Below, one piece after another: positions 732-42,544 of a stretch of 43,530 bases of DNA; the first letter of the stretch is position 1; each line of letters opens with the position of its first letter. The position numbers were made by a program, and so were the translations under genes. Origin of the DNA: Euryarchaeota archaeon Ods01 (GTDB lineage: Archaea > Halobacteriota > Halobacteria > Halobacteriales > Halorutilaceae); contig JAQZCZ010000006.1 of the NCBI GenBank assembly GCA_028751095.1, positions 1 to 43,530 on the forward strand. The letters are read 5' to 3'. A model generated the notes under the pieces. It was not told the origin of the DNA. It was given only the letters and a program-made list of their open reading frames with translations, and did no database searches.

Positions 732-1514
732 TCACCCGAATATCGCTTTCGCCATCTTCTGTGCGAATCCGTCGCCTTCCTCCTCGGTCTCGACCTCCTC
801 GACGAACTCCTCGTCGGCGAGCTTGTGCGCAAGCTTCTTGTACGCCTGTGAAGCCGGCGAGTCCGGCGAGTGGAGGACGACGGGCTTCTTGTACGAAGCC
901 GAGCGGCGTACCTCGGCGTCCTCGGGAACGGAGACGAGAACCTCCGCCTCCAGAAGGTCCTCGACACGCGTAACGTCAAGGTCGTCGCCGCTCGAACCCG
1001 CACGCGTCAGAACGATTCCGCCGACCTCGCTACCGACCTTGTCGGTCATGACACGTGTCTTGAGTCCGTCCGCCATACTCGAAAGCTCGGGGTTGACAAC
1101 GAGGAGAACCTCATCAGCGACCGCGAGAGGTATGACGCTGTCCTTGCTCAGACCTGCGGGCGCGTCGATGAGAAGATACTCGGTGTTGTCGATTATGTAC
1201 GAAAGCGCGTCCTGAAGCTTCTCGGGGTCCGCCTTCTGGAAGCCTTCGAGCGTCAGACCGGCGGGCACTACCTGAAGCCCCTCGGGACCCTCGTAGACCG
1301 CGTTCTTGATGCGCTGGTCGCCCGAAAGGACCTCGTGTAGCGTGACAGGTTCCTCCTCCAGACCGAGGAGAAGACCGAGGTTAGCCATACCGAGGTCAGC
1401 GTCCAACACAGTCGTCCTATGCCCCATCTGAGCCAGCGACGTTCCGAGGTTTATCGTCGTCGTCGTCTTTCCTGTTCCTCCCTTGCCGGAGGCGATAGTA
1501 TATACCTTTGCCAT
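732..1514 (-). CDS. minD: MinD/ParA-family P-loop ATPase
   Basis: Deviant Walker A GKGGTGKTTTTINLG, LLIDAPAGLSKDS, C-terminal short amphipathic segment GFAQKMAKAIFG. Confidence 0.92.
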   Translation of the reverse strand: MAKVYTIASGKGGTGKTTTTINLGTSLAQMGHRTTVLDADLGMANLGLLLGLEEEPVTLHEVLSGDQRIKNAVYEGPEGLQVVPAGLTLEGFQKADPEKLQDALSYIIDNTEYLLIDAPAGLSKDSVIPLAVADEVLLVVNPELSSMADGLKTRVMTDKVGSEVGGIVLTRAGSSGDDLDVTRVEDLLEAEVLVSVPEDAEVRRSASYKKPVVLHSPDSPASQAYKKLAHKLADEEFVEEVETEEEGDGFAQKMAKAIFG

Positions 1515-5519: not shown

Positions 5520-8500
5520 TTACTCGTCCTGACGGCGGAGCGCGAGAAGCGCAACCGCTATCAGGGCGATGAGGGCAGCAACGGCGGTGAAGCCAGGCTG
5601 CTCCTCTTCAGGAGGCTCTTCGTCGTCAACCTCGTCGTCGTCATCGTCGTCTTCAAGCTGAGCTTCAAGCTCTGCGTTACGGTCTTCGAGGTCGTTGACT
5701 TCCTGCTGGAGGTCGTCACGCTCGGATTCGAGCTGAGCGACCTGGTCCTGAAGCTCTTCTATCTGCGCACGGAGTTCTCCGAGTTCGTCTTCAAGGCGTT
5801 CACCTTCAGCGAAGGTTCCTTCGGCGACGATGTCAACGGTGACCTCGTCGACGCGTTCACCATCGTCGGACTGGATGGTGTAGTTGCCAGGTTCGACTTC
5901 CTCGGGGACCTCAATCTCAACGTGCCAGACGCCGTCTTGTTCCCACTCGTCGGCGATGCCGACGTCGAGTTCAGCGATGGACGGTCCTTCCGTCGCCTCA
6001 ACGACTATCGTGGCGTCGTTGGGGTTGCGGTTCGTGGTACCGCGGATGACTGCCGTTTCGCCGACCTCGATGTCAGCAACTCCGGTGAGGTTCTCTTCGT
6101 ACTGCGTCGGGACAACGTCGTTTATCTGGGTGCGCGAGTCACTCGTGAGGCGGAACTGCTCCGCGACGAGGAGGTCGTCGCTACCTGCGGCTTCGACCGT
6201 CTCGTCAAGGAGTATCTCACGGACCTGGTCCTGTGTCAGGCTTCTGTCGAAGATAGCGTCGAAGTCGTCTTCGACAAGGTCAACGAGTCTGTCAGTAGTA
6301 GCGACGCTACCGTCCGAGAAGAGACCATCGCCGAAGCGACCGTCACGTCCCGGACTGACCGCGGTTGCCTGAACCGTACCGGTTCTGCGGTCACTGATGT
6401 CGAAGCCTTCCTCGTCGATGGTTCCGTCGCTGTCAGCGTCGAACGTGTCAGCGTCGGTTCCACCCTGAGTGTCGGTGAAGAGAACGACGTACTCTTCAGG
6501 TCCGATTAGGGTACCCTGCCAGTCGATTCCGTCGTCCTCGTAGACCTCACCGCCGAACGTCATGAAGTCGAGTTCGAGGGTGGGTTCAGCGACGCGGATG
6601 GACTGCTGGATGCTCGCTCCCGAACTGAAGTCCGAGGAGTCGAGTCCGTCGTCGCCGGTTACTGCGTCACCGGTGTTACGCGCCGCTATGTCGACATCAA
6701 CCGTGTCTATGACACCGTAGCGGTAGACACCGGGCTGTCCGAGTATGTCGGCAGCCTCCTCGGTGACACCGGATTCGGTGCGGTCACTGATGTCGATGTC
6801 AGTTTCTTCGTACGTGTCGTCCGTTGCGTCCACGGAGATGGTCTGAACGTGGAAGAAGTTGTCGCGGTCACGGACGAAGACCGAGACGTCGTCGACACCA
6901 CTCGAAGTGGTACCGTTAAGGTCGACTTCCTGACCGGGGACGTACGTGCGGTCAGGCGAGTCGATGGTTATCTCGGCTTCAGCGACGTTGAGGGTGTCGT
7001 CGTCCTCATCGTCGTTGAAGCTACTGCTGTCTTCGAAGAGGTTGGCGATAGCGCCTACGTGGTCACCGTCTTCGGCGGCGTCGAAGAGTTCGACATCAAC
7101 GCTCGCGTCGTCGAGGTACTTGGACCGTATCTGCGACTCAGCGACGCCGTCCTTCTCGACTACGGCGAAGACGCCTTCGAGGTCAGCTTCCTCGTTAGCA
7201 ACCAATTGAGCCGCGTCGCCGAGAGTACCTCCGACGTTAATGAGGTCTCCTCCAGCGTCAACTTCCCAGAGGTCTCCGAAGGCGTAGACGAAGTAGTCGT
7301 CTTCGTTAACGATGTTATCCTCCTGAGCCTCGAAGACGAGACCGCGCTCTTCACCTTCGTCGGTTAGACGGAAGGTGGACATCGCGTCGTTGAGCGCGTC
7401 TTCGTGGTCAGCCGGGAGAGGGTTGTCGTCACGGATGTCGTTGACATCCTCACGGAGGTCACCCTCGTCGATGAAGACGGCGTTCGAGTCCTCTTCGAAC
7501 GTGTTGAGGACTTCGTAGACTACGCGTTCACCCTGGTAGACATCGGTCTGGTCGAGTTCGATGTTAGGGTCGTCCTCACTTATGACGGTGAGGAGGCTAA
7601 GCGACGAGAACTCGTCGCGGTCGTACTCGTCGTCGTCAGTATCGAAGTCGTCCTCGTCAGGTTCGACACCGACTTCGTACGTTCCGGTGTCCTCGAAGTC
7701 AAGGTCGAAGACGATGTCGTACTCGTTACCGTCTTCAGCCTCCATGTTCGTTCCGTTCACGGTGACGGCTTCGGACGTGATGTCACGCTCGTCGTCGTCA
7801 AGGACTAGACCCTGAAGGTCAAGGTCCGCAGGGTCGAATCCTGTGCGGTAGTCGACTGCTACCTGAACCTGAGTGTCTTCCTCAACGGAGCCGCCACCGA
7901 TGCGGTTACCGTTGCGGTCGAGAACCCTCATACGGTCGGGCGAGGGTTCACGGACGCGGATGAACTCGTCGTTGTCGTCGTCACCCGCAAGGTAGTAGTT
8001 ACCTTCTTCGAGCGTCCAGCGGACGGGGTCGTCGCGTATCTCCTGTCCGTCAAACTCGAAGTCCTCTATGTCGTACTGCGCGATGTCCTCTATGAGTGTG
8101 AACTCCTTGTCCTCACCAAGGAAGACACGCGTCTCGTTGATGAGTTCACCGGCTCCACGGTCAACCGAGCCCTGAACATTCACGGACGGGTTGGTGTCGT
8201 AGACACCATCTCCGCCAGCCTGGAGACGGTTGACGGTTAGATCACCGTCATCGTCAACGGAGCCTACGAGGGGAACATCGCGCGTATCGTGGACGAAGTC
8301 ATGTGCGTTAAGCACGTTACCGTCCTCATCGACAGCGAAACCGTCAATAGTGCCGCCAGCCTCAACTTCTTCAGGTCCCTCGTTGATTGTCAGAGCGCCT
8401 TCCGCCGTGTCAGTGTCACCGTCGAAGCCATTGTCGTAGGTGACCGTGACATCGAGGTCATCACCAGCGTCTCCTTCTTGAGTGGTGTAGGTTATTACGT

Positions 8501-8798
8501 CATCAACTTCACCACCTGCCGTTACGTCCACGTCTTCCTGTGTCTCCACTACACCCTCTATGCCCTCTATCTCAAGCTCTACGTCATCGGTAGCACCTTC
8601 TTCACCACCAGTCTCGTTAAGCAGGTAGTCAACGGTGACTTCGTCACCTTCAGTTACCTCCTCAGGCGATACATCTTGGACTGTTACGTCCACATCTTGA
8701 GCCGCCGCTACGCCAGCGGCAGCCATTCCTACCAGTGCGAACACCGATAGGATTACCGCGATTCTATATGTTCTATCGTTCATGTTGTTATCTGTCAC
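5520..8798 (-). CDS. S-layer-like surface glycoprotein, PGF-CTERM anchored
   Basis: 1092 aa; signal peptide RIAVILSVFALVGMAAAGVAAAQ; acidic body; coiled coil; C-terminal PGFTAVAALIALIAVALLALRRQDE (PGF-CTERM pattern). Confidence 0.9.
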   Translation of the reverse strand: MTDNNMNDRTYRIAVILSVFALVGMAAAGVAAAQDVDVTVQDVSPEEVTEGDEVTVDYLLNETGGEEGATDDVELEIEGIEGVVETQEDVDVTAGGEVDDVITYTTQEGDAGDDLDVTVTYDNGFDGDTDTAEGALTINEGPEEVEAGGTIDGFAVDEDGNVLNAHDFVHDTRDVPLVGSVDDDGDLTVNRLQAGGDGVYDTNPSVNVQGSVDRGAGELINETRVFLGEDKEFTLIEDIAQYDIEDFEFDGQEIRDDPVRWTLEEGNYYLAGDDDNDEFIRVREPSPDRMRVLDRNGNRIGGGSVEEDTQVQVAVDYRTGFDPADLDLQGLVLDDDERDITSEAVTVNGTNMEAEDGNEYDIVFDLDFEDTGTYEVGVEPDEDDFDTDDDEYDRDEFSSLSLLTVISEDDPNIELDQTDVYQGERVVYEVLNTFEEDSNAVFIDEGDLREDVNDIRDDNPLPADHEDALNDAMSTFRLTDEGEERGLVFEAQEDNIVNEDDYFVYAFGDLWEVDAGGDLINVGGTLGDAAQLVANEEADLEGVFAVVEKDGVAESQIRSKYLDDASVDVELFDAAEDGDHVGAIANLFEDSSSFNDDEDDDTLNVAEAEITIDSPDRTYVPGQEVDLNGTTSSGVDDVSVFVRDRDNFFHVQTISVDATDDTYEETDIDISDRTESGVTEEAADILGQPGVYRYGVIDTVDVDIAARNTGDAVTGDDGLDSSDFSSGASIQQSIRVAEPTLELDFMTFGGEVYEDDGIDWQGTLIGPEEYVVLFTDTQGGTDADTFDADSDGTIDEEGFDISDRRTGTVQATAVSPGRDGRFGDGLFSDGSVATTDRLVDLVEDDFDAIFDRSLTQDQVREILLDETVEAAGSDDLLVAEQFRLTSDSRTQINDVVPTQYEENLTGVADIEVGETAVIRGTTNRNPNDATIVVEATEGPSIAELDVGIADEWEQDGVWHVEIEVPEEVEPGNYTIQSDDGERVDEVTVDIVAEGTFAEGERLEDELGELRAQIEELQDQVAQLESERDDLQQEVNDLEDRNAELEAQLEDDDDDDEVDDEEPPEEEQPGFTAVAALIALIAVALLALRRQDE

Positions 8799-26034: not shown

Positions 26035-26136
26035 TACGCGCGGTACGTCCGTCCCGTCTTAATGGTTTGTGGTTGTCGGTTCGACGGTCGTCGTACAAAG
26101 GTTTATTACATTGACAGCTTAACGAACGTCCAACGT

Positions 26137-26808
26137 ATGTCAGAGTCCGTCAAGTCGGTCTCCGCATCCCCCTGTTCTGTCGAGGAAGAAAGTCGGGAAG
26201 CGGTCTTGGACAAGTTCGAGGACTTCATGGAGGAGATAATCGACGACGCCCTCTCGGAGTTCGAACCCCTGCGTATCGTCAACATGAACCGCCTTCCGGG
26301 GAACAGCACCGCCAAGTCGGTCGTACGTCCCGTGATACGCGAGGAACTCAACTTCTTCCGCGCCAACATCGAACAGCAGTTCGAGGTCGTCATGGACTAC
26401 GCCGAGACGGGGAACGTCGACAAAAACCGGCGCAGGTTCCTGCGCTCCGATATCTTCTACCAGAACTTCGAGGGAAGCGAACGCCGCCAGCTCGAACGCG
26501 ACCTGACACGGAGGATGCGTAACATGGGCGACGACATGGCACCCCTCATCGAGACGGGCGAGGATAACTTCTGGGATGCCGCCGTCGCCGCCTACGACGA
26601 GGACGAGGCGCGCGAGATGCTTCCCAAGCATTTCGCGTACACCGACACCGTCCGCGAGTACCAAGACGACCTATCCCTCACCGTCGAGATAGGCGGACGC
26701 GTCCTCGGAACCGAGATAGAGTATACGGACGAGGCTATGCGCGTCCTCGACATCGCCGAGACCAACCTCCGAAACGACCTAGAGAGACGCGTCGAGCAGG
26801 TCTACTGA
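26137..26808 (+). CDS. Uncharacterised protein, paralog A of tandem pair
   Basis: 223 aa; LPGNSTAKSVVRPVIREELNFFRANIEQQFEVVMDYAE... aligns with next gene along nearly full length. Confidence 0.85.
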   Translation: MSESVKSVSASPCSVEEESREAVLDKFEDFMEEIIDDALSEFEPLRIVNMNRLPGNSTAKSVVRPVIREELNFFRANIEQQFEVVMDYAETGNVDKNRRRFLRSDIFYQNFEGSERRQLERDLTRRMRNMGDDMAPLIETGEDNFWDAAVAAYDEDEAREMLPKHFAYTDTVREYQDDLSLTVEIGGRVLGTEIEYTDEAMRVLDIAETNLRNDLERRVEQVY

Positions 26809-26827
26809 CGCGTTAACTGACGCGTTA
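26804..26827 (+). repeat. 12-bp perfect tandem direct repeat ACTGACGCGTTA x2
   Basis: actgacgcgtta at 26804-26815 and 26816-26827; first copy contains the paralog A stop codon. Confidence 0.9.
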
Positions 26828-26893
26828 GCTTCGTTTCCCGAACGGGTTCACGGAAAGAGTTATACCGTAGGAATTATATAATTAGACGAAACC

Positions 26894-27667
26894 ATGGGTA
26901 AAGAAGCAGTACGGGACCAGTTACACGTCTTCTTGGGGGACGTGACCGAGTACGCCTTGGAGGAGTTCAAGCCGCTCGCGGTCGTCGGTCTCGGCTTCCT
27001 CCCGGGAAACAGGGTTGCCAAGTTCGTCCTGAGTCCTATAATCGACAGCGAGATTAGCACCATCAAGATTAGCCTCCAGAACGAGTTCAACCTCATAATG
27101 GACTACTCGGAGGAGATAGCCGAGGGGAACGACCCCGATATCGAGGAGTACCGCGACCGGTTCCTCCAGTCCGACTTCTTCTACCAGCACTACGAGGGCG
27201 AAAAGACCGAGGAGTTCGAGGAGGTCATGATGCAACGTCTCGACGAGGTCGCGCGCGACATGGCTCCGCTCGTCGAGGTCGAGACCGACGACTTCTGGGA
27301 AGCGCTCGAAGAGGCGTACGACAGACGCGAAGCGGAAGAGGTTCTCAAGTACCACTTCAGCTTCACCGACAAGATAGTCGAGGAGTTCGGAGACGGACTC
27401 AAGATAAAGATAAACATCGGACCTATCGGTATCGGATACACCGACGAGGCTATGCGCGTCATGCCTATGGCTGAGGGACACCTCCGGCGCGAACTAGTCG
27501 ACAAGCTCGACGAAATTTACGAGGAAGAAGGTGGGGCAGAGGATGAAAAAGACCTCGAAGAACTCGAAGAGGAAAACGAGAAGCTCCGTGAGGAACTCGA
27601 AAGGCTACGTGAGGAAGAGGAAGACGACGAGGGACAAGAAGACGTAGGCGCGGAAGCCGAAGACTGA
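26894..27667 (+). CDS. Uncharacterised protein, paralog B of tandem pair, with C-terminal charged coiled coil
   Basis: 257 aa; LPGNRVAKFVLSPIIDSEISTIKISLQNEFNLIMDYSE...; tail DLEELEEENEKLREELERLREEEE; AT-rich promoter-like tataccgtaggaattatataatt upstream. Confidence 0.85.
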   Translation: MGKEAVRDQLHVFLGDVTEYALEEFKPLAVVGLGFLPGNRVAKFVLSPIIDSEISTIKISLQNEFNLIMDYSEEIAEGNDPDIEEYRDRFLQSDFFYQHYEGEKTEEFEEVMMQRLDEVARDMAPLVEVETDDFWEALEEAYDRREAEEVLKYHFSFTDKIVEEFGDGLKIKINIGPIGIGYTDEAMRVMPMAEGHLRRELVDKLDEIYEEEGGAEDEKDLEELEEENEKLREELERLREEEEDDEGQEDVGAEAED

Positions 27668-40944: not shown

Positions 40945-41514
40945 TCAGTCGTCGAACGCCGAGGGGAGCGAAACTTGGTAACGTCCGTCTTCCTGTAGCG
41001 CGATTATCTTCTCGTCCTCTTCGTACAGGTTCATCAGGTTGAGTTCATAGCTCCCGGGTTCAACGATACGTATCGTCTCGAACTGGTCCATGAGTTCGCG
41101 GCGCGCCTCGTCGGCGCGGGCACGCCTGAATCCGGCGTCGTCGCCGTCCACCTCAGATATTTCGTCGGACGTGTCTTCGTCTCCGCTGTCGTCGAGCTTT
41201 CCGCCGAAGGCTCGCTCGTACTCCGAGTCGGCTTCGACGATATCGTCGTCGCCCCCCATGCCGGTCTGAGTCTCGGCAACGGGTTTCTTGGTCTCGGCTG
41301 GCTGTGTCTCCGCCGAGAGGGTCTCGGAAGGAGAGGTTGGTTCGGAAGCCTCAGAACCCGACGGAGTAGTCTCGGAACTCGACGGTTCGGAGCTGACTTC
41401 CTTGACGTAGAAGAACTTGGTGGCTCCGCAAGACGGACAGCCTTCGAATACCTCGTCGGAGCCGTCGTCGAAGACATCGCCGCATTCGACGCATTCGTGA
41501 GGCACGCGTCTCAC
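40945..41514 (-). CDS. oapC: Zinc-ribbon protein, OapC-like
   Basis: VPHECVECGDVFDDGSDEVFEGCPSCGATKFFYVKE; C-terminal FETIRIVEPGSYELNLMNLYEEDEKIIALQEDGRYQVSLPSAF. Confidence 0.88.
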   Translation of the reverse strand: MRRVPHECVECGDVFDDGSDEVFEGCPSCGATKFFYVKEVSSEPSSSETTPSGSEASEPTSPSETLSAETQPAETKKPVAETQTGMGGDDDIVEADSEYERAFGGKLDDSGDEDTSDEISEVDGDDAGFRRARADEARRELMDQFETIRIVEPGSYELNLMNLYEEDEKIIALQEDGRYQVSLPSAFDD

Positions 41515-41906
41515 CTCGCCGAGACGACGGCGCTGATTAGCTCGCTGTCCTTGTGGAGTGTCTCTATCTGGTTCGCGGGACCGATGACGGTCATCTTCGA
41601 CTCGTCCTCTCCGAGTATACGGTCGAGGAATCCGCTCTTGGGGGACTCCTTGGGGTACGACTCTATCTCTATACCCGAGAACCCGTCGGGCGAGATTTCG
41701 GTCATAGTAACCTCGATAAGCTTCGCTTCCTCGTCGGGCGAAAGACCGGCTTCTAGTATGACGACCTTCCCCTCGCGGACGCCGTCGAGTATGAAATGTA
41801 TCTTCTCCATGCTCGTCATCTCGTCCATCCTGCCCGCGCTAATCATATCTATCTGGACGCCGCCTTCGCCGTCGTCGTGTTTGACTTGTTCCGGCATGGT
41901 TATCAC
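41511..41906 (-). CDS. oapB: OapB-like (DUF2073) protein
   Basis: GVQIDMISAGRMDEMTSMEKIHFILDGVREGKVVILEAGLSPDEEAKLIEVTMTEI; 4-bp overlaps with both neighbours. Confidence 0.88.
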   Translation of the reverse strand: MITMPEQVKHDDGEGGVQIDMISAGRMDEMTSMEKIHFILDGVREGKVVILEAGLSPDEEAKLIEVTMTEISPDGFSGIEIESYPKESPKSGFLDRILGEDESKMTVIGPANQIETLHKDSELISAVVSAR

Positions 41907-42544
41907 CCGAACTGCTCCGCTATTTTCTCATACAGCTCGTCCGTGTTATCGCCTTCCAGACCGCTCAGCGGAACCGTCTCGTGCTGAGGGAAGGCTTGGT
42001 CGATACGCTGAGGCGAGGCGTCTTCGAGGTCGACCTTGTTGGCGATAATGAGTATCGGAAGGTCGCGCGACTCGATGATACCTGTCAGCATCGTGTTGAC
42101 CTGCGTGAACGGGTCGAGCGACGAGTCGAGGACGTAGATGACGCCGTCGATATCCTCCTTGAGCCAGTGCATCGCCTCAGCGACACCCTCGGTCGCCTCC
42201 CTCGACCGCTCGATGGCGTCGTCCTCATCCATCCCGAAGTCGACGAACTCCTGGTAGTCGACCTTGGTCGAGACGCCCGGCGTGTCGACTATATCGAGCG
42301 TTACGGAGTTCCCGTTTCTCTCGATGGTAACGTCTTCTTTTCTCTGTGCGCGCCGTGTCTCGTGAGGAATCTGCGACTCGGCACCCATCGCCTCGCCCGT
42401 CCAGTCGCGCGCTATACGGTTCGCAAGTGTCGTCTTGCCGGCGTTAGGGGGACCGTAGATACCGATACGTGCGGTCCCGTCGTCGGCGAATATCCCGTTT
42501 ACAGTCTGGGATATGCTGTTTCTTATTTCAGTTATTATACCCAT
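41903..42544 (-). CDS. oapA: Era-like small GTPase, OapA-like
   Basis: ARIGIYGPPNAGKTTLANRIARDW (G1), IVDTPGVSTKVDYQEF (G3), IIANKVDLED (G4). Confidence 0.92.
   Translation of the reverse strand: MGIITEIRNSISQTVNGIFADDGTARIGIYGPPNAGKTTLANRIARDWTGEAMGAESQIPHETRRAQRKEDVTIERNGNSVTLDIVDTPGVSTKVDYQEFVDFGMDEDDAIERSREATEGVAEAMHWLKEDIDGVIYVLDSSLDPFTQVNTMLTGIIESRDLPILIIANKVDLEDASPQRIDQAFPQHETVPLSGLEGDNTDELYEKIAEQFG

Follow-up and report, generated by a model that had tools for sequence, protein, structure and literature searches.

The window, by which we mean the whole stretch of 43,530 nucleotides analysed here, covers positions 1 to 43,530 (forward strand) of contig JAQZCZ010000006.1. It is contig C31 of the assembly of Euryarchaeota archaeon Ods01 (GCA_028751095.1; 1.87 Mb, 133 contigs, 89% complete), a member of the Halorutilaceae that belongs to the same genus as Halorutilus salinus. 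Two adjacent genes, referred to as A and B, are found on the forward strand of the window with the following features; the function of the two promoter-like elements is putative.

26095–26108, forward strand: BRE/TATA-like element of A (ACAAAGG + TTTATTA), some 32 nt upstream of the ATG; the Halorutilus orthologue has a similar element.
26137–26808, forward strand: gene A, 223 aa, pI 4.4; family core with a 17-aa N-terminal extension.
26805–26828, forward strand: terminator-like hairpin after A, corresponding to a perfect 11-bp direct repeat (two copies of CTGACGCGTTA); pattern scan, consensus match only.
26851–26866, forward strand: BRE/TATA-like element of B (CGGAAAGAG + TTATACC), some 31 nt upstream of the ATG.
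26894–27667, forward strand: gene B, 257 aa, pI 4.1; core (residues 1–210), then a zipper-like helix and an acidic tail.
27554–27622, forward strand: zipper-like segment of B, residues 221–243 (LEELEEENEKLREELERLREEEE); assessed by heptad count, shuffles, structure model, and alignment.

Gene coordinates include the stop codons, and both open reading frames are intact. The start codons at ATG 26137 (A) and ATG 26894 (B) are taken as correct because the orthologues start at the same place (MSESV... and MGKEAVR..., respectively). GTG 25978, given as the start of A in the program-made list of open reading frames, was rejected, as it reaches into the start of lysA and the Halorutilus orthologue opens with MSESV at the site of ATG 26137. 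The products of A and B share 40% identity and 64% positives over 212 aa (BLASTP, E = 3e-50), far beyond chance; the near end-to-end paralogy proposed in the initial annotation is thus confirmed, and the motif pairs quoted there are present in this alignment.

The 60 nt before A and before B have a GC content of 46.7% and 40.0%, respectively, against 60.8% for the window, in agreement with the AT-rich upstream regions described initially; of all 60-nt windows, only 3.5% have a GC content as low as that before A and 0.8% one as low as that before B. As to the independent regulation suggested on these grounds, each gene has a BRE/TATA-like element of its own, which is clear in the window and in Halorutilus and partial in the second sampled genus of the family; for B, Halorutilus has conserved the element block, which can also be recognised, as CGCGAAAGTTTTAAAA, in the second genus. 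The first copy of the direct repeat CTGACGCGTTA contains the stop codon of A; in Halorutilus, a T-run (GAGGTTTTTC) follows the A gene in place of the hairpin. Separate, leaderless transcripts for A and B are plausible from these sequence elements. An Rfam scan of the window returned no RNA.

A and B belong to a hitherto undescribed family that is almost wholly restricted to Halobacteria, defined here as the haloarchaeal W-E-R-E helical family. Both carry the features by which membership was judged, i.e., invariant Trp, Glu, Arg, and Glu residues and a [FY]T(D/E)EA motif. Matches to the family profile are full-length (A, 6e-80; B, 4e-74; other Ods01 paralogs, 1e-72 to 1e-62); this profile contained A, B, and paralog rows, and the pairwise E value of A and B given above is independent of it. 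Duplication in the Halorutilaceae has multiplied the family to about six or seven lines, and every line has a chromosomal neighbourhood of its own. Seven paralogs are present in Ods01: A, B, a second tandem pair on contig C111 (C111a and C111b), and single genes on contigs C62, C34, and C84; six copies were found in Halorutilus, five in the second genus, and two in a relative with a 64% complete genome. The C111a, C111b, C62, C34, and C84 paralogs have the same domain (28–33% identity to B) and fall in a common clade with A and B; they differ from B in lacking a zipper tail and in their neighbourhoods.

The gene is present in 81 of 394 Halobacteriales genomes (about one in five), nearly always as exactly one copy outside the Halorutilaceae, and a phylum-wide sample of 295 genomes gave matches from the same order only. 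The single-copy proteins (Haloarcula sp. JP-L23, QIO25201.1; Haloarcula sebkhae, Halovenus, and Natronococcus loci) were found by profile search and aligned jointly with A and B. They share with these the core of about 210–230 aa, the invariant W, E, R, and E, and a [FY]TDEAxR motif; unlike A and B, they occur once per genome, have an extra loop before the hairpin (IDPGEVLGG), and lie in other neighbourhoods; unlike B, they lack a zipper tail. One homologue is carried on a Haloarcula plasmid. Among Nanohaloarchaeota, one of 28 genomes was positive (QJJ-5 bin.20; locus L104, 5868–6509); its homologue, recovered with a profile built from an alignment of the single-copy subset, is full-length like A and B and branches beside the Halorutilaceae clade. 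Given this single occurrence, the copy was probably acquired from a haloarchaeon (host-to-symbiont transfer) or mis-binned. Viral contigs of IMG/VR and phages yielded no relatives of the family.

The initial annotation recognised no known family for A and B, and sequence and fold searches bear this out. Matches in Pfam, NCBIfam, PADLOC, and PHROGs were scattered and below threshold, none being common to more than two of 25 members; those to AbiEii, FUSC-like proteins, and GpsB were weak, single-member matches, attributed to coiled coil or chance. Searching solved structures by sequence gave no convincing PDB match for A or B. AlphaFold models were obtained with a pLDDT of 91 and pTM of 0.84 (A) and a pLDDT of 89 and pTM of 0.76 (B). 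Their common layout runs from a first helix through a long second one (36–38 residues) and several shorter ones to a beta-hairpin and, finally, another long helix; an all-helical bundle with one beta-hairpin is thus predicted with high confidence. Foldseek comparison of these models with the PDB, a check proposed at the outset, returned no significant match (best E value 0.66 for B, 0.34 for A). The top match of A, a designed helical barrel (E = 0.34), is not significant; the top matches of B, terpene synthases, are generic helix matches (TM about 0.2, probability 0.12). Against viral structure models, the best match of B (E = 0.005, TM 0.16) is not meaningful. The models thus represent a confidently predicted, unmatched helical fold. 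Family proteins are acidic, about 210 residues long, and predicted to be cytoplasmic. The invariant residues are as follows.

A numbering: W146, E199, R202, E208.
B numbering: W135, E185, R188, E194.

In sets of 25 and 42 diverse members, all four (W135, E185, R188, and E194 of B) are invariant; in a set of 56, the first Glu and the Arg are invariant, and the Trp and second Glu are conserved in over 90%. In the model of B, W135 is located on a short helix and E185, R188, and E194 at the start of the last helix, all with high confidence. Conserved Cys or His residues were looked for among family members and none was found.

B continues beyond the core in a tail with Leu at a/d positions and Asn at an a position (LEELEEENEKLREELERL), modelled as part of one continuous helix (residues 183–248). 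Such a tail is present in the B orthologues of three genomes and absent from A. Of the eight a/d positions, six are filled in the window and, in the same register, in Halorutilus; all eight are filled in the second genus, where the register is longer. Shuffled tails reached the observed score in 35 of 2000 cases for the window and in 1 of 2000 for each of the two other orthologues. The Leu heptad and a-position Asn are as in bZIP zippers (PF00170); bZIP proteins have a basic DNA-binding region, which is lacking in the B tail (27 D/E vs. 5 K/R), and B scores 11.2 bits against PF00170, below the Pfam cut-off of 27.6. An Asn at a zipper a position favours parallel dimers (as in GCN4); that of the B tail is probably buried. 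The heptad pattern suggests that the tail would serve to form B homodimers, not to pair A with B.

A maximum-likelihood tree was inferred from 40 proteins (support values in brackets). Halorutilaceae paralogs and the nanohaloarchaeal copy form one clade (100/99), apart from the single-copy haloarchaeal genes. Orthologues of A are monophyletic (95/91), as are those of B (100/99); each clade covers both sampled genera, so A and B are older than the split of these genera. The nearest paralogs of B are the C111 types (91/89), not A. Gene order around the pair (TruB, cmk, and lysA; A and B; acyl-CoA dehydrogenase, CaiB/BaiF, SDR, SCP2, and ADH) is kept in all three genomes that have A and B. Flanking genes were identified by Pfam; lysA, the archaeal CMP kinase, and the alcohol dehydrogenase type by a separate scan. 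The tandem has been co-inherited in these three genomes of two genera; the fourth Halorutilaceae genome (64% complete) has neither gene. Values of dN/dS against Halorutilus are about 0.15 for A and 0.11 for B, indicating purifying selection, and are only rough because dS is near 1.1. Conserved order and flanks together with low dN/dS identify A and B as functional genes, not remnants; that they might be unrelated lineage-specific fragments, an outcome the initial annotation had allowed for, is refuted by these full-length, syntenic orthologues under purifying selection. The phyletic distribution and synteny envisaged there as a check have accordingly been established, with A–B order and flanks kept in three genomes and the family mostly single-copy elsewhere.

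Surroundings of the Halorutilaceae paralogs are stable for each paralog and different from locus to locus. The C111-type paralog is found near AhpC/TSA, glutaredoxin, and MsrA genes; the C62-type paralog near an alpha/beta hydrolase gene and genes which, named by eye from sequence, we take to be MutL/MutS-like; the C84-type paralog near metallo-beta-lactamase-fold proteins and a small membrane coiled-coil protein. Of the tandem pair C111a/C111b, two relatives retain one member each. A small, divergently placed acidic protein of 120 aa (motif DEMYRLSEVxxGNVSRTVFRxP) adjoins the C111-type paralogs in Ods01 and Halorutilus (loci L107 and L112); at the C111 locus it has no Pfam match, and in the second genus a homologue with an expanded acidic tail adjoins that genus's family copy.

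Elsewhere in haloarchaea, neighbours of the single-copy gene (F) were called with a codon-usage gene caller. Genes for UbiA, DUF547, and/or AhpC/TSA proteins adjoin F in about 20 loci of several haloarchaeal families, in at least three orders: redoxin-F-DUF547-UbiA (Halovenus type), DUF547-UbiA-F-redoxin (Natrialbaceae type), and F-redoxin-UbiA-DUF547. The UbiA neighbour is MenA-like, but far below the equivalog cut-off. That these genes stay together though reshuffled hints at a functional link, and their identity is a weak hint at quinone or redox work of the single-copy gene. The DUF547-UbiA pair occurs also without the family gene; in Haloarcula, the gene has other neighbours, presumably of the queuosine type (QueCDE), as judged by eye; and Halorutilaceae genomes were found to contain no DUF547 and no close UbiA.

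The reading we put forward, tentatively and at somewhat less than even odds, is that the family consists of non-enzymatic helical adaptors, with B acting as a homodimer. Each paralog would bind its own partner as an adaptor or scaffold; B would dimerise via its own parallel zipper, placing two cores side by side; separate promoters would allow A and B to be expressed independently. The single-copy protein may, to go by its gene neighbourhoods, act with the MenA-like UbiA prenyltransferase, the DUF547 protein, and the thioredoxin-fold AhpC/TSA protein. A non-enzymatic role is preferred because conserved Cys or His and matches to enzyme families are lacking; conserved acidic residues and an Arg nevertheless leave room for catalysis. 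An enzyme of unspecified kind, with an active site made of the invariant Trp, Glu, Arg, and Glu and a nearly invariant Asp, is weighed here as an unlikely alternative: the strict conservation of the four invariant residues in the sets of 25 and 42 members, and of the Glu and Arg (nearly so of the Trp) in that of 56, would agree with it, but a network of structural salt bridges about the hairpin and the final helix would suit the same residues, and neither Cys/His conservation nor a sequence or fold match points to an enzyme.

The obligate heteromer of diverged partners that the initial annotation saw in A and B is improbable to a like degree. Tandem order kept in every genome having the pair and purifying selection on both genes are what such partners would show, and A and B may touch through their cores; as a special pair, however, they find no support, being two of seven paralogs, with B sister to the C111 group rather than to A and the zipper confined to B. 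Moreover, the other tandem pair has been cut to one member in relatives, and single-copy homologues manage without a partner paralog. A role in redox or quinone processes together with UbiA, DUF547, and AhpC/TSA, the Halorutilaceae copies having been redeployed after loss of the cluster, is a rather doubtful reading; it draws on adjacency in about 20 loci and at least three arrangements and, near the C111-type paralog, on the genes for AhpC/TSA, glutaredoxin, and MsrA, but members of the cluster are found where the family gene is missing, the reverse is also seen, and shared ancestry of gene order may account for part of the adjacency. Least credible, with hardly any weight assigned to it, is a mobile-element, defence, or toxin-antitoxin pair: A and B are small adjacent genes of no known family, and one homologue is on a plasmid, yet the pair is held in vertical synteny with core genes, its members are homologous to each other, and neither viral contigs or phages nor PADLOC and PHROGs gave a match of note.

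Halorutilales have been described as abundant, widespread, and streamlined haloarchaea (PMC10134839). Retention of five to seven diverged copies in such a lineage suggests that the process served is important to the Halorutilaceae. Streamlined genomes seldom keep many copies of one gene family. The adaptor reading could be extended to seven specialised adaptors in a streamlined lineage, each for a different process, and to a link of the ancestral single copy with quinone/redox chemistry at the membrane; we hold this extension to be speculative and improbable. The novelty lies in an orphan family with a lineage-specific expansion, which alone does not amount to a system of a new kind; absence of a database match does not imply a new mechanism. 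Haloarchaea with the single-copy form include culturable ones that are in part tractable.

Three further features of the window, all on the reverse strand, were recorded. OapB (PF09846), a small GTPase, and a zinc-ribbon-like protein are encoded in a row at 40948–42544; in several MAGs of haloarchaea (L071, L077, L091, L099, L100), similar genes adjoin the single-copy member of the family, possibly by coincidence. Encoded at 498–725 is a protein of 76 aa that has a coiled coil and, apparently, a single membrane segment; it adjoins a MinD/ParA-type ATPase (735–1514, reverse strand); a homologue (57% identity) lies beside the C84-type paralog in all four Halorutilaceae genomes. A secreted protein of 1068 aa (5523–8726) contains a coiled-coil stretch and, at its C terminus, a PGF-CTERM sorting motif.
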